DNA of 64,000 nucleotides from an uncultured Pseudomonadales bacterium. GTDB lineage: Bacteria > Pseudomonadota > Gammaproteobacteria > Pseudomonadales > Azotimanducaceae. Below, in pieces: positions 9,881 through 14,347 of this stretch. The DNA lies in assembly GCA_951813295.1 (NCBI GenBank), contig CATOTI010000002.1, forward strand, positions 3,296,522 through 3,360,521, written 5' to 3'. The number at the start of each line of letters is the position of its first letter. Position 1 is the first letter of the stretch. Both the position numbers and the translations under genes were made by a program. Under the pieces are notes generated by a model that was not told the origin of the DNA, did no database searches, and saw only the letters and a program-made list of their open reading frames with translations.

Positions 9881-10017
9881 TGTGCCGCGTGCAGTGCTCT
9901 CCCGCAATACGACTTCGCCGAGGTCGGAACACATTGTGCTCGCGATGGTCGAATCATCCCGATCGGCGATGTCAAAGGCGCGAAATGTTAGCAAAAGGGA
10001 TCGACAAGCGAGTTCGC

Positions 10018-10046
10018 TTGACAGCTATTTTGTTGCACCGGACGAT
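10018..10046 (+). promoter_or_regulatory. Possible sigma-70 promoter for the selenoprotein-TRAP operon
   Basis: A perfect -35 hexamer TTGACA lies at 10018-10023. At a 17-base spacer the -10 position reads GACGAT, which matches only three of six. Transcription would start about 70 bases before the ATG at 10122. The rest of the 295-base gap (9827-10121) holds no gene that I can support. Confidence 0.25.
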
Positions 10047-10121
10047 GGTTCGCGTCTGCTCGAATCGATCGTTGCTTCGCGTTTCGACGCATCCGGCGAA
10101 GCACAAGCACGGATATTCGTC

Positions 10122-10703
10122 ATGAAGTTCTTCTCGAGGCTGCGTCTTGCATGCATGACGCTGGCCTTTCTCGCACTGTCGTCCCACGCGGATGCCGATG
10201 AATACGCGGACGGTTGGGGTCCGGCTGTGGGGTCGACGGTTGGCGATCTCGTCTTCGTCGGTGCCGACGGTAGCGATGCCGCACTGTCTTCGTTTCAAGG
10301 CGAAAACGGGACGTTGCTCTTTCTCAACCGTTCCGCGGATTGGTGACCCTTCTGCCAGCGACAGCTCGTGCAGCTGTCCGATTGGACGGAGCGCTATTCT
10401 CGCCACGGGATCAACGTCGTCGCGATGACGTATGACGGCCCCGAGGTGCTCGACTCGTTCGCGACGGAGCAGGAGCTCAACTACCCGCTCGTGGGCGACC
10501 GCGATGCGTCGGTCGTCAACGAACTCGGCGTGCGCAACGAGGAATATGCGCAAGGTCATCGTGCGTACGGCATACCGCACCCGGGCATCGTGTTATTCGA
10601 CGCCGAACGTCGGGTGGTTCTGAAGCGTGCCGTGGCGGGCTACCGAACTCGACCGCCCTTCGACGAACTCTTTACGGCGGTCGTCGAGCTACTCGACGAA
10701 TAG
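10122..10703 (+). CDS. Exported peroxiredoxin/thioredoxin-like protein with in-frame UGA read as selenocysteine (UxxC)
   Basis: From ATG 10122 the frame runs 193 codons to TAG at 10701-10703, broken only by TGA at 10344-10346 (codon 75). The surrounding protein is RSADW-[UGA]-PFCQRQLVQL, so the UGA sits exactly where Cys is found in the DWCPFC-type redox motif of AhpC/TSA-like proteins, giving Sec75-Pro-Phe-Cys78. Downstream homology continues in the same frame (NVVAMTYDGPEVLDSF, YPLVGDRDAS, YGIPHPGIVLFD), which excludes a frameshift. Residues 1-24 look like a Sec signal (KFFSRLRLACMTLAFLALSS, then HADA), placing the enzyme in the periplasm. A SECIS-like hairpin follows the UGA. It begins a TatT-TRAP operon, 16 bases before the lipoprotein gene. 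Standard gene callers would split or truncate it. If the organism lacks SelA/SelB/SelC it would instead be a pseudogene. Confidence 0.8.
10360..10378 (+). promoter_or_regulatory. Candidate bacterial SECIS hairpin
   Basis: GACAGCT (10360-10366), loop CGTGC (10367-10371) and AGCTGTC (10372-10378) form a perfect 7-bp stem inside the coding sequence. The loop starts 20 bases after the UGA and carries G at its second position. Both features agree with the known rules for bacterial SECIS elements (apical loop roughly 16-37 bases after UGA, G within the first two loop bases). Confidence 0.65.
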
Positions 10704-10719
10704 CCCGGTGGAAGAGCGA

Positions 10720-11592
10720 GTGAAAAAACGTGGGCGGCCTGGGCGCCGCAACAGCAGCGTCGTCGTGATGCTGGCGGCTCTCCTGGGCTTGAGCGGCTGC
10801 GCGTCGATCGTCGGCGGGTTGACGGCCGGCCTCGCGTCGGACCTCGGGACGGCGATCCTCGACAATGACGATCCATTGGTCGTGCGCGATGGTGCACCAG
10901 CATTCCTCATCATCCTCGACGCGCTCCTGAACTCGGATCCGGACAACGTCACGCTGTTGCGTGCCTCTGCTCAGCTCAACAGCGCCTATGCGTCGGCGTT
11001 CGTTGCTGAGTCCACGCGGCAAAAAGCGTTCGCGACGAAAGCGCTCGATCTTGCCCATCACGCGGCATGTCGGGAAAGCGCGTGGGCGTGTGAGGCGAAA
11101 GATCTCGACTACGAGACGCTCGAAGCGGCTATTGCCGCCGAGGACGACGTCGACCTGCTCTACAGCTTCGCGAGCGCCTGGGCGGGATGGATCCAGGCGA
11201 ACTCGGACGACTGGAAAGCCATCGCGCAACTCGGTCGGGTGAAACCGATGATGCATCGCGTGGCCGAACTCGATACCGACTACGACAACGGCGGCGCCTT
11301 CATGTACCTCGGTGTTTTCGAGACGCTCGTTCCGCCCGGCCTCGGCGGCAAGCCCGAGCTCGGCCGCGAGTATTTCGAGCGAGCGATCGAGATTTCGGAC
11401 GGTACCCACCTGATGGCCCAAGTGCTCTTTGCCGAGCAGTACGCGCGCATGCTCTTTGAGCGGGAACTGCACGACGAACTGCTCGAAGGGGTGATCGCAG
11501 CCGAAGCCCGTGTTCCGGGACTCACTCTCATCAATCGCATAGCGCAGGAACAAGCGCGTGAACTATTGGACTCTGCGGATGAATATTTTTAG
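10720..11592 (+). CDS. TRAP-associated TatT family lipoprotein
   Basis: This 290-residue protein is read from GTG 10720 with GAAGAG upstream. It has a lipoprotein signal: basic KKRGRPGRRN, a hydrophobic core and the lipobox LSGC with Cys27. The body is rich in short helices spaced like TPR repeats (LLRASAQLNSAYASAF, GGAFMYLGVFETLVPPGLGGKPELGREYFERAI), matching the TRAP-associated TatT family first described in Treponema, where a trimeric TPR lipoprotein pairs with the TRAP binding protein. It overlaps the downstream dctP gene by 14 bases, so translation is likely coupled. TatT-type TRAP systems are thought to handle hydrophobic ligands; the ligand here is unknown. Confidence 0.85.
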   Translation: MKKRGRPGRRNSSVVVMLAALLGLSGCASIVGGLTAGLASDLGTAILDNDDPLVVRDGAPAFLIILDALLNSDPDNVTLLRASAQLNSAYASAFVAESTRQKAFATKALDLAHHAACRESAWACEAKDLDYETLEAAIAAEDDVDLLYSFASAWAGWIQANSDDWKAIAQLGRVKPMMHRVAELDTDYDNGGAFMYLGVFETLVPPGLGGKPELGREYFERAIEISDGTHLMAQVLFAEQYARMLFERELHDELLEGVIAAEARVPGLTLINRIAQEQARELLDSADEYF

Positions 11593-12589
11593 GCGTCGAC
11601 GTGCCTCGGCATCTGTCGCCCTCGTGCTGGCATCGTTCTTTGCGTTCTCGGCCTCTGCGGCGACTTTGAAGATCGCGACCCTGTCGCCGGACGGGTCGTT
11701 CTGGATGGACACGATGCGTGACGCCGGCAAACGGGTGGAGGCGGCGACGGACGGCCGGGTGAAGTTCAAGTTCTACCCGGGTGGCGTGATGGGCGACGAC
11801 TACGCCGTCCTCCGCAAGATTCGCGTGGGGCAGCTGCAGGGTGGGATCGTGACGACCGGTGTCTTCGGCACGATCTATCCGGACGCGCAGGTCTACAACC
11901 TGCCCATGGTCTTCAAAAGCCTCGATGAAGTTGACGCGGTCCGCCAACGGATGGATGCGCGACTCTTCGAGGGCCTCGAAGACAAGGGGTTCGTGCCGTT
12001 CGGGTTCGCCGAAGTCGGCATGGCGCACGCGATGAGCCAACGTTACGCGCGCACGGTCGAGGACGGGCGCGGCCTCAAAGTCTGGTCGCCAGAAGGCGAC
12101 CAGGCGGCTGCTCGTGCCCTTCAGGCGTTCGGCATCTCGCCGATTCCGCTCACGATCGCCGACGTCCTCGGCGGGTTGCAGACGGGGTTGATCGATACCG
12201 TTGCATCGCCGCCCGTCGCCGCGCTGGCGTTGCAGTGGCACACGCGGATCAAGTACGTGCTGGACGTACCGATGATGTACATCTATGGCATCTTCGTGGT
12301 TTCGGATCGGCACTTCTCGCGGATCGACGAAGCCGACCGGGCGATTGTGCGGGACATCATGTCCGTGGCCGTTCGAGCGGTGGACGCGCAGAACCGGCTC
12401 GACCATCAAGGCTCTATCGAAGCACTCGTAAGCGAAGGAATCGAACTCATCGAACCCACGGCCGAGGAACTGGCGTCGTGGCAGGTGAGTGCTGACCGGG
12501 CGACGTCGGCATGGGTCGATGACGGTGTGGTCAGCCGTGAGATCTACGACGAGTTACGGCGCGAGCTTCGGGCCATTCGTGCCCCCTAG
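11579..12589 (+). CDS. dctP: TRAP transporter periplasmic solute-binding protein (DctP family)
   Basis: This is a 336-residue protein starting at ATG 11579 within the end of the TatT gene. Residues 1-27 form a signal peptide (MNIFRRRR, hydrophobic core, SASA before ATLKIA). The mature protein shows the DctP pattern: KIATLSPDGSFW, VKFKFYPGGVMGDD, the QGGIVTTGVFGTIYP hinge segment, and LKVWSPEGDQAAARALQAFG, where the conserved substrate-contacting Arg of sialic/dicarboxylate binders is not obvious. This fits the TatT-associated branch (TatP-like). It captures the solute in the periplasm and passes it to DctQM encoded directly downstream. Confidence 0.88.
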   Translation: MNIFRRRRASASVALVLASFFAFSASAATLKIATLSPDGSFWMDTMRDAGKRVEAATDGRVKFKFYPGGVMGDDYAVLRKIRVGQLQGGIVTTGVFGTIYPDAQVYNLPMVFKSLDEVDAVRQRMDARLFEGLEDKGFVPFGFAEVGMAHAMSQRYARTVEDGRGLKVWSPEGDQAAARALQAFGISPIPLTIADVLGGLQTGLIDTVASPPVAALALQWHTRIKYVLDVPMMYIYGIFVVSDRHFSRIDEADRAIVRDIMSVAVRAVDAQNRLDHQGSIEALVSEGIELIEPTAEELASWQVSADRATSAWVDDGVVSREIYDELRRELRAIRAP

Positions 12590-13076
12590 TCTGCAACGCG
12601 TTCAGCGATTGCTGGCGGGGGTAGAGACTGGCCTTCTCGTCGCCCTGCTCCTCGTCATGATCGGCGTTGCGGTCTATCAGGTCCTGGCGCGCAACCTTGC
12701 TGGAACGGGACTGGTCTGGGGCGATGAGATGGTGCGCGTCGCAGTCCTCTGGATCACCATGGTGGGTGCATCGGTCGCCGCGAAGTCGAACTCGCATATC
12801 AGCATCGACGTTGTCGCGCGGTTCAGTACGCCCCAGATGCGCGGCATCGTCGACCGGGTGACATCGCTTTTCACCGCGGCGGTTTGTGCGGCCCTCGCCT
12901 GGTATTCCCGGACGATGATCGAATGGGATTACATCGACGGGACGACTGGTTTTGGTCCCGTGCCGGCCTGGATCTGTGAGTTGGTGATCCCCGCGACCGC
13001 TGTCTTGATCGCCGTTCGTTATGCCCTGCGTGCCGTCTTTCCTCCGCCGCCGGAAGACGAGACGGAAGCCGAATGA
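12579..13076 (+). CDS. dctQ: TRAP transporter small permease subunit (DctQ)
   Basis: The small membrane subunit has about 165 residues and four hydrophobic segments: GLLVALLLVMIGVAVYQVLA, the MVRVAVLWITMVGAS region, the LFTAAVCAALAWY region and LVIPATAVLIAVRYAL. Between them lies the family motif GDEMVRVAVLW followed by KSNSHISIDVV. The start is uncertain: GTG 12579 overlaps the dctP end by 11 bases and is used here, since the frame is open further upstream but antisense-like in composition. Its stop overlaps the dctM start (ATGA at 13073-13076). Confidence 0.85.
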   Translation: MPPSLQRVQRLLAGVETGLLVALLLVMIGVAVYQVLARNLAGTGLVWGDEMVRVAVLWITMVGASVAAKSNSHISIDVVARFSTPQMRGIVDRVTSLFTAAVCAALAWYSRTMIEWDYIDGTTGFGPVPAWICELVIPATAVLIAVRYALRAVFPPPPEDETEAE

Positions 13077-14347
13077 TCACTCTAGCGGCCATCGGCCTGG
13101 TGGTGATGGCGATTCTCGGCGCGCCGCTTTTCGCCGTCGTTCTCGGCGCTGCGATGCTGGGATTCATCGCCTCCGATATCGATCTTGCGGTGGTTGCCAT
13201 CGAACTGTATCGGATTACCGATACGCCGCTACTCGTGGCTTTGCCGTTCTTCACGTTCGCCGGATACGTCATGGCACGCGCGAACACCTCGCATCGTCTG
13301 ATGGCGATTACGAAGGCGGTTTTTGGCTGGATGCCCGGCGGGTTTGCGATCGTCGGCTTTGTTGCCTGCGCGGTCTTCACCGCGCTCACGGGCGCATCGG
13401 GTGTGACGATCGTCGCGCTCGGTGCTTTGCTTTTGCCGGTGCTCAAAGAAGCCGGGTATTCGGAGCGTTACAGCCTGGGTCTCGTCACGGCGTCGGGCAG
13501 CCTCGGGCTTTTGATCGTGCCGTCGGTGCCCTTGATTCTCTACGGGATCATCGCCCAACAGATGGACGTCGGTGAGCGGTTTGCGATCACCGATCTTTTC
13601 CTCGCCGGTGCCTTGCCGGTCATCCTGATGATCGTCTTGCTGGTCGCCTGGACGTTGTGGCGGCACGGCGATGGGGTGAAGACGACGCCGTTCGTCGCCG
13701 CTGAGGTATGGCAAGCGTTGAAAGAGGCACGCTGGGAGTTACCGCTGCCCTTTGTCGTGCTCGGCGGTATCTACTCCGGTTGGTTCGCGATTTCAGAAGC
13801 CGCTGCGCTCACTGCGCTCTATGTGTTGTTCGCGGAAGTGGTCATGTATCGCGAGGTGAAGCCGAAAGCGTTGGTCGAGGTGATCCGTGAATCGATGGTG
13901 ATGGTCGGCAGTATCATCCTCATTCTCGGCGTCGCGCTTGCCTTCACGAACTTTCTCGTCGATGCAGAGGTGCCGCAGCGACTGTTCGAGTTCATGCAGG
14001 AGCACGTCAGCAGCGCGCTGACGTTCCTCATCCTGCTGAACATCCTGCTTCTCTTGCTCGGGGCGATCCTCGACGTCTTCTCGGCGATCGTGATCATGGT
14101 GCCGTTGCTCCTGCCGGTCGCGGTCGGTTACGGCATTCACCCTGTCCATCTCGGTGTGATTTTTCTCGCGAATCTGCAGATCGGCTATTTCACGCCGCCG
14201 ATCGGCATGAACCTCTTCATTGCGAGCTATCGATTCGAAAAGCCGATTCTGGATCTATACGCAGCGAGCATCCCGTTCATGGTGGTGTTGCTCATCGCGC
14301 TGCTCATCATCACCTACGTGCCGGCGCTTTCCCTCTGGTACCTGTGA
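13073..14347 (+). CDS. dctM: TRAP transporter large permease subunit (DctM)
   Basis: This is a 424-residue polytopic inner-membrane protein, the normal length for DctM, with about 12 hydrophobic segments. Family motifs include LLVALPFFTFAGYVMA, the GASGVTIVALGALLLPVL region, TASGSLGLLIVPSVPLILYG and IFLANLQIGYFTPPIGMNLF near the C-terminus. It uses the sodium gradient to import the solute delivered by the DctP protein. It begins at the ATGA overlap with dctQ and ends the operon; the stop lies inside a compact hairpin shared with the convergent phosphotransferase gene. Confidence 0.92.
   Translation: MITLAAIGLVVMAILGAPLFAVVLGAAMLGFIASDIDLAVVAIELYRITDTPLLVALPFFTFAGYVMARANTSHRLMAITKAVFGWMPGGFAIVGFVACAVFTALTGASGVTIVALGALLLPVLKEAGYSERYSLGLVTASGSLGLLIVPSVPLILYGIIAQQMDVGERFAITDLFLAGALPVILMIVLLVAWTLWRHGDGVKTTPFVAAEVWQALKEARWELPLPFVVLGGIYSGWFAISEAAALTALYVLFAEVVMYREVKPKALVEVIRESMVMVGSIILILGVALAFTNFLVDAEVPQRLFEFMQEHVSSALTFLILLNILLLLLGAILDVFSAIVIMVPLLLPVAVGYGIHPVHLGVIFLANLQIGYFTPPIGMNLFIASYRFEKPILDLYAASIPFMVVLLIALLIITYVPALSLWYL

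Follow-up and report, generated by a model that had tools for sequence, protein, structure and literature searches.

The window, a stretch of 64,000 nucleotides from an uncultured bacterium of the order Pseudomonadales, contains a gene for a predicted exported redoxin with a TGA codon inside its reading frame, followed on the same strand by a set of transporter genes. The features of the locus are the following:

10122-10703, + strand: gene for a putative exported UxxC redoxin selenoprotein, 193 codons, stop TAG; export signal recognised by eye and hydropathy
10344-10346, + strand: predicted selenocysteine (Sec) codon TGA, codon 75
10353-10355, + strand: Cys78 codon, partner thiol of the UxxC motif
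10361-10377, + strand: predicted bacterial SECIS hairpin with a 6-bp stem, 10361-10366 / 10372-10377
10367-10371, + strand: apical loop CGUGC of the hairpin, beginning 20 nt after the UGA
10569-10583, + strand: G-I-P-H-P, residues 150-154
10720-11592, + strand: TRAP T-component lipoprotein TAtT (PF16811, 234.4 bits; lipobox LSGC; GTG start at 10720, or at 10708)
11579-12589, + strand: TRAP substrate-binding protein DctP (PF03480; its ATG at 11579 overlaps the end of TAtT)
12489-13076, + strand: TRAP small membrane subunit DctQ (PF04290; putative start)
13073-14347, + strand: TRAP large membrane subunit DctM (PF06808; 4-nt overlap with dctQ)

The first of these frames is interrupted by one internal TGA only, codon 75 in the context NRSADW-U-PFCQRQ, in agreement with the sequence-only reading of a 193-codon frame with a single TGA set as DW-U-PFC. 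That reading had also expected ordinary gene callers to report two broken pieces, which is right for ORFs beginning with ATG, GTG or TTG under translation table 11, as these are 9882-10346 and 10368-10703. As the read-through protein is in addition below the cut-off of every NCBIfam model, routine annotation would probably miss the gene. With the TGA read through, the protein matches the Pfam families AhpC-TSA (PF00578; 72.7 bits, cut-off 26) and Redoxin (52.5 bits, cut-off 26.6). Homology on both sides of the TGA is borne out by a profile made from the 34 other rows of a 35-row alignment of relatives (A3), which matches each half separately (48.1 bits for residues 1-74 and 154.3 bits for residues 76-193, with 224.2 bits for the entire protein); with Pfam, the C-terminal half alone reaches 53.6 bits, above the cut-off, and the N-terminal half alone gives no match. 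An antisense ORF of 202 aa (9972-10580) that covers the TGA site was rejected as a real gene, having no Pfam match. When the window was scanned for other TGA genes, with at least 40 residues on each side and outside long ORFs, 12 distinct sites came up, none of them convincing by eye; the scan is a weak one, missing even the known gene, which the antisense ORF masks.

The split of the frame into two ORFs under table 11 is also what a real stop or an error would produce, in which case the locus would be a pseudogene, a mis-assembly or a pair of peptides. This can be judged from the relatives. Searches gave some match in 212 of 293 genomes of the order at E <= 0.001, 10 loci in a pattern-based scan of GTDB species genomes, and the window's own genome only in a class-wide search of 369 genomes at E <= 1e-20. 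Among the 39 sequences with E <= 1e-15, the window included, the codon-75 column, proposed earlier as the place to look for Cys, holds Cys in 20, TGA in 18 and Ser in one, and the second Cys is conserved in all 39 as well as in all 35 rows of A3; three further TGAs, located where the alignment ends on the C-terminal side, were taken as real stops. The threshold dropped the second (minus-strand) redoxin of locus L050, two further hits at L056, and L061. For the tree, L062, L063 and L068, which are not among the 39, were added to give 42 rows, and A3 leaves out seven of these (L036, L040, L048, L050, L051, L059 and L068).

In the window's own family, 104 of 150 genomes match at E <= 1e-20, at 120 places in all; some of these are paralogues, and a few belong to proteins of a longer type. 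At 119 of them the matched stretch is interrupted by a single in-frame TGA and by no further stop, with the position of the TGA read in the fetched loci only, and the stop-free (Cys) form is absent among the 120 places. Other stops in relatives, which would have pointed to decay, are thereby confined to a single exception, in genome G305 (L142, G305:C49:33500-38500, minus strand): here the Sec codon is TGG, TAA and TAG follow further on, and the truly decayed redoxin copy is still found upstream of retained transporter genes. Decay can happen in this family, but it does not account for a TGA that 18 of 39 diverged sequences have in one and the same column, that is the single one in the matched stretch at 119 of 120 family places, and that is accompanied by a hairpin under selection only where the TGA is present. 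A real stop or an error at codon 75 is very improbable on this evidence.

The SECIS-like hairpin that had been claimed to follow the TGA lies at 10361-10377. The bacterial SECIS model, as summarised in PMC13188914, asks for a loop of 3-9 nt located 16-37 nt after the UGA, with a G within the first two loop bases, on a stem of 4-16 bp and with an MFE of -7.5 or lower. The window passes with its loop CGUGC at +20, 6 bp and -15.2 kcal/mol. The stability of the region is less distinctive, as the fold of -18.3 kcal/mol over 50 nt is only 1.7 sd below shuffled sequences, 7 of 200 of which were as stable, and at positions 10000-11000 Rfam gave nothing beyond two matches at chance level (E 2.9 and 7.3). 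Relatives using UGA were compared with relatives using Cys. Two sets were used, 22 Sec genes, including L062, L063, L068 and the minus-strand redoxin of L050, which are not in the 39, and 20 Cys genes, with the Ser row L051 in neither. The full model with its energy limit is passed by 16 of the 22 Sec genes and by 4 of the 20 Cys genes, compared with 88 of 440 and 94 of 400 codon-shuffled controls, respectively. All five core helix pairs in the same register are present in 21 of 22 Sec genes versus 2 of 20 Cys genes. When the helix is taken as 7 bp, 89.6% of cells are paired in the Sec genes, with 31 double-change cells (shuffle mean 11.1, reached in 0 of 500 shuffles), while the Cys genes have 65.0% paired and 9 double-change cells (shuffle mean 8.0, 190 of 500). 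RNAalifold likewise places a 6-bp helix in the Sec alignment and none in the Cys alignment.

As the protein motif Q-[LF]-x-[QE]-L itself tends toward such a stem, synonymous codons were permuted among genes with the same amino acid. The resulting z values are inflated by kinship and some identical rows: 11.1 for 48 Sec genes (285 of 288 six-pair cells formed, mean 251.2, 0 of 2000 permutations), 7.0 for the first 22 of these (130 of 132 cells) and 7.5 for the 26 added later (155 of 156 cells, mean 141.1), whereas the 20 Cys genes under the same treatment are without effect (82 of 120 cells, mean 81.0, z 0.6, 800 of 2000). L140 and L141 duplicate L062 and L063 and were left out of the set of 48, in which three or more pairs of rows are identical over 48 nt, including one pair across the two Sec sets in which the new row equals L052. 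The loop begins with GU in 45 of 48 Sec genes versus 1 of 20 Cys genes, a contrast that may be partly driven by the protein since GU also begins a Val codon. Judged from these results, the hairpin is a bacterial SECIS element, under selection in genes with UGA but not in those with Cys. The relatives thus amount to a clean natural experiment, set within much the same protein motif.

Selenocysteine insertion requires a dedicated machinery, and the sequence-only reading had accordingly predicted selA, selB, selC and selD in the genome. All four are present in the window's assembly, which comprises 5.97 Mb in 3 contigs and is flagged as 98.6% complete and 7.4% contaminated. Matches to selA (540.6 bits), selB (394.4 bits) and selD (272.4 bits) exceed the curated cut-offs, which are passed in one, two and two of 14 control genomes, respectively. 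The selD match (L020, C1:321939-322841) sits within an open frame of 749 residues, which makes a fusion of SelD with a further domain probable. Rfam detects a tRNA-Sec gene (68.3 bits, gathering 47), and ARAGORN calls it as well, as tRNA-SeC with anticodon tca; the Rfam model is unspecific when used alone, passing in 5 of the 14 control genomes. A second Rfam match at C2:2734807, near an elongation-factor gene and barely over gathering at 47.4 bits, is probably an ordinary tRNA. The four sel genes are all on contig C1 and the window is on C2, with the sel stretch and the window having GC of 0.621 and 0.624 and a tetranucleotide correlation of 0.98; for stretches of five other genomes of the order this correlation ranges from -0.23 to 0.90, partly due to the difference in GC.

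A frame with an internal TGA would equally be open under any genetic code that reads this codon, so that the UGA could be decoded as Trp or Cys through a changed code or a suppressor. Of the 43 non-overlapping window ORFs with at least 200 aa (a mechanical set that includes the antisense ORF), 24 terminate in TGA, from which it follows that TGA is an ordinary stop here. The rows without TGA have Cys or Ser at codon 75, with Trp occurring only in the decayed copy, and both tRNA-Sec and the SECIS element are present. Decoding as Trp or Cys is accordingly an extremely improbable account, and selenocysteine is almost certainly inserted at codon 75.

The distribution of the machinery among relatives agrees with this. 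In the genomes with the TGA form other than the window's, selA is found in 16 of 16, as opposed to 5 of 13 genomes whose redoxin has Cys or Ser instead (Fisher p 0.0003, uncorrected for kinship). That five of the latter nevertheless have selA implies that the Cys form is not simply a mark of lost machinery, and as four of the five belong to one family (f44), Cys must there have replaced Sec, or the reverse, despite the machinery. A minimum of five changes in the Sec/Cys/Ser state is required on the tree of 42 proteins; for the Sec label, well supported branches force three. Within f44, a well supported clade (100/99) of five Cys proteins is nested in a group (100/100) to which two Sec proteins also belong.

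The N-terminus of the product is MKFFSRLRLACMTLAFLALSSHADA; judged by eye and from hydropathy, roughly the first 24 residues resemble a cleavable signal peptide. Across the 35 rows of A3, the invariant positions are G63, R70, W74, U/C75, C78, Q81, D105, D126, G150 and R177, a list that excludes the Ser row since L051 is left out of the alignment. The G-I-P-H-P segment, with G150 in 35, P152 in 33 and P154 in 34 of the 35 rows, resembles the cis-Pro loop of thioredoxin-fold oxidoreductases, where the cis geometry would have to be assumed. In TlpA and ResA, a W precedes the redox residue in a W-C-x-x-C motif and a GxP loop follows downstream. The canonical active-site motif of peroxiredoxins is PxxxTxxC. 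This motif is absent from the window protein: with Cys78 as the last residue, Ser71 is at the place of the Pro and Sec75 at the place of the Thr, and the motif present is UxxC (U75-P-F-C78). Membership in the true peroxiredoxins was rejected, as neither this motif nor the PxxxTxxU form given in PMC13188914 is found. The earlier description of the protein as peroxiredoxin-like therefore stands at the level of the superfamily only and fails at the active site, which with W-U-x-x-C and GIP is like that of TlpA and ResA.

There is nonetheless a smaller chance that the protein is a true peroxidase instead of reducing disulfides, using either Sec75 or Cys78 as its peroxidatic residue against H2O2 or lipid peroxides. 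AhpC-TSA is the best Pfam family, the thiol-peroxidase models PRK09437 and PrxQ are among the best NCBIfam matches, all of which are below cut-off, and a Sec residue might react with peroxides even where the classic motif is lacking. Set against this are the absence of PxxxTxxC and the TlpA/ResA-like combination of a W ahead of the redox residue with a GIP loop; the closest solved structures by sequence are mixed, with the AhpC/TSA protein 5enu as the best and several ResA structures next. Thiol-disulfide or peroxide reductase chemistry in the broad sense is likely. The favoured product is a periplasmic selenol/thiol oxidoreductase in which Sec75 would attack and Cys78 would resolve. It would have in common with ResA and TlpA (NF002854; PDB 3c71, 1jfu) the W-[C/U]-x-x-C motif, the GxP loop and export, and it differs from ResA in its score (46.1 bits, cut-off 170) and in the replacement of the first Cys by Sec. 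The SelL-related redox protein NF040769 covers a similar region, with the window protein (34.5 bits) and its paralogues L062 (47.2 bits) and L063 (41.3 bits) all far under the cut-off of 120.

Selenoproteins of this kind have been described before. Table 2 of PMC2398784 contains "Prx-like 1" UxxC selenoproteins of PF00578 with 225 sequences, and both a 2026 review (PMC13188914) and PMC9312934 name a "Prx-like thiol:disulfide oxidoreductase" as well as a UxxC "Redoxin family protein". By its sequence, the window protein is of the known UxxC "Prx-like thiol:disulfide oxidoreductase" kind, which, as far as these sources describe it and Prx-like 1, shares with it the Pfam family, the UxxC motif, the exchange of Sec and Cys and a hairpin after the UGA. 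Compared with Prx-like 1 as presented in that table, the sequences here have R-S-x-x-W-U-P-[FY]-C in most rows (the 225 published marine sequences may include this group), the window protein has a predicted export signal, and one bacterial family has been met with the TGA form only and with a linked TPAT operon.

This operon is formed by the genes downstream of the redoxin. The matches to PF16811, PF03480, PF04290 and PF06808 are all above the Pfam cut-offs and make up a complete TPAT gene set, in which the T-component, with the starts of TAtT and DctP assigned by reading the sequence, probably begins 16 nt past the redoxin stop. The order redoxin(Sec)-TAtT-DctP-DctQ-DctM is found at 9 of 30 loci (window 10122-14347, L052, L064, L065, L067, L069, L070, L072 and L073), belonging to the window itself, to seven further genomes from its family and to the gammaproteobacterial MAG JAPOTD010000062. 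The 21 loci without the five-gene order include the two paralogues in the window's genome and all scanned loci of the Cys type, and two of the 21 (L054, L059) are short contigs. A T-component is downstream at 21 of 25 further family loci, a proportion biased upward as these loci were the best matches, and is not adjacent at the other four. It is also missing next door to L062 and L063 (same genome), L068 (the second copy of a relative) and the redoxins L066, L071, L077 and L079, from four other genomes of the family. Starting from the T-component, a redoxin within the 1.5-kb flank is found at 5 of the best 30 of 79 places in the order, all five in the window's family. Among the same best 30, no redoxin is beside the 23 T-component genes outside this family; upstream sequence is cut short and uninformative at a 24th (L100), and within the family L106 has no redoxin in its 1.5-kb flank.

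Such a neighbourhood could have been kept by descent only, with the redoxin unrelated to the transporter. The linkage is seen in one family only, plus one unplaced MAG, and paralogues without a transporter exist, as would be expected in this case. Gene order and nearness persist, on the other hand, among redoxins that are merely 38-51% identical to the window protein. Descent alone has somewhat less than an even chance of being the full explanation, and a functional coupling of redoxin and transporter is an evenly balanced proposition. A possible partner for the redoxin would be the C-x6-C pair of the T-component, likely a structural or redox disulfide as judged from its conservation. As a mark of redoxin-linked operons, this pair failed: it is carried by 33 of 34 distinct T-components (L082-L111 included), redoxin linked or not, and so does not single out a dedicated partner.

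TPAT systems are thought to carry hydrophobic molecules, those of proteobacteria being mostly from hydrocarbon degraders (PMC5812351), and a sterol-binding protein is a relative of the T-component (PMC10942540). The TatT/TatP system of Treponema (PMC5812351) likewise combines a T-component lipoprotein with DctP and homologues of DctQ/DctM; a selenoprotein gene heads the operon here, and none is mentioned for TPAT in the part of that paper concerned. Titles and the opening lines of abstracts gave no link between selenoproteins and TRAP transporters, although one could be in print nevertheless. For the function of a UxxC Prx-like selenoprotein, its linkage to this operon is a clue that can be tested.

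Comparison of genomes thus supports the integrity of the gene, the exchange of Sec and Cys, selection on the SECIS element, the presence of the machinery and the recurrence of the operon, and it is highly probable that the locus encodes an exported oxidoreductase with Sec75 and Cys78 that is made together with the TPAT transporter. SelA, SelB, SelC and SelD of the cell would read the UGA of codon 75 as selenocysteine, steered by the SECIS hairpin downstream, and the product would be exported to the periplasm via its signal peptide. With a thioredoxin fold, as predicted from sequence, and Sec75/Cys78 as its redox pair, the protein may attack a disulfide or a peroxide through Sec75, after which Cys78 would resolve the selenyl-sulfide. 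The redoxin is presumably co-transcribed with the downstream TPAT genes and might serve the transporter as a reductant, either of the C-x6-C pair in the T-component or of oxidised or peroxidised hydrophobic ligands on their way in; each such detailed idea about the substrate is by itself unlikely. The wider notion of a selenium-dependent TPAT, in which a dedicated periplasmic selenoprotein keeps the T-component reduced or reduces ligands in transit, is speculative and rather doubtful; if true, the uptake of hydrophobic solutes would depend on selenium.

The window gene is one of several candidates in its genome. AhpC-TSA genes over the cut-off number 18, of which 11, the window gene included, have exactly one in-frame TGA, and one more single-TGA match (L148) is below the cut-off. 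The codon context was read in all 12, and the window gene shares its W-U-x-x-C context with seven others. Besides the window gene, the 12 comprise the following, each AhpC/TSA-type with one active-site TGA:

C2:292976: PxxxTxxU type (L143)
C2:562871: WAxxUGC type (L147)
C2:596946: W-U-x-x-C type (L063)
C2:659751: WAxxUGC type (L145)
C2:1236121: W-U-x-x-C type (L114)
C2:1939815: W-U-x-x-C type, below cut-off (L148)
C2:2388514: PxxxTxxU type (L144)
C2:2583244: W-U-x-x-C type (L146)
C2:2647378: W-U-x-x-C type (L113)
C2:3439883: W-U-x-x-C type (L112)
C2:3613479: W-U-x-x-C type (L062)

A search of the genome for the SelW type (PF10262) found nothing. In PMC5029168, selenoprotein-rich is defined as six or more selenoproteins, a threshold that this genome exceeds, as a single Pfam family contributes no fewer than 11 apparent selenoproteins. 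Gammaproteobacteria, to which the MAG with the nearest named operon-bearing relative (L052) also belongs, are outside the three phyla or clades highlighted as rich in the part of PMC5029168 concerned, which lists single species as well. Both the transporter operon and the size of this selenoproteome go beyond what the sequence-only reading had mentioned.

Pairs of redoxins occur at some loci of relatives. Tandem Sec redoxins about 100 nt apart are found at L139 (G421:C10), G394:C27:60324-61530 and G414:C36:21477-22677, and at L139 a T-component gene follows one redoxin of the pair. At L050 (G280:C22:179570-181248), two TGA redoxins on opposite strands face each other in a stretch of 1.7 kb, and the same contig carries selA some 4 kb away.
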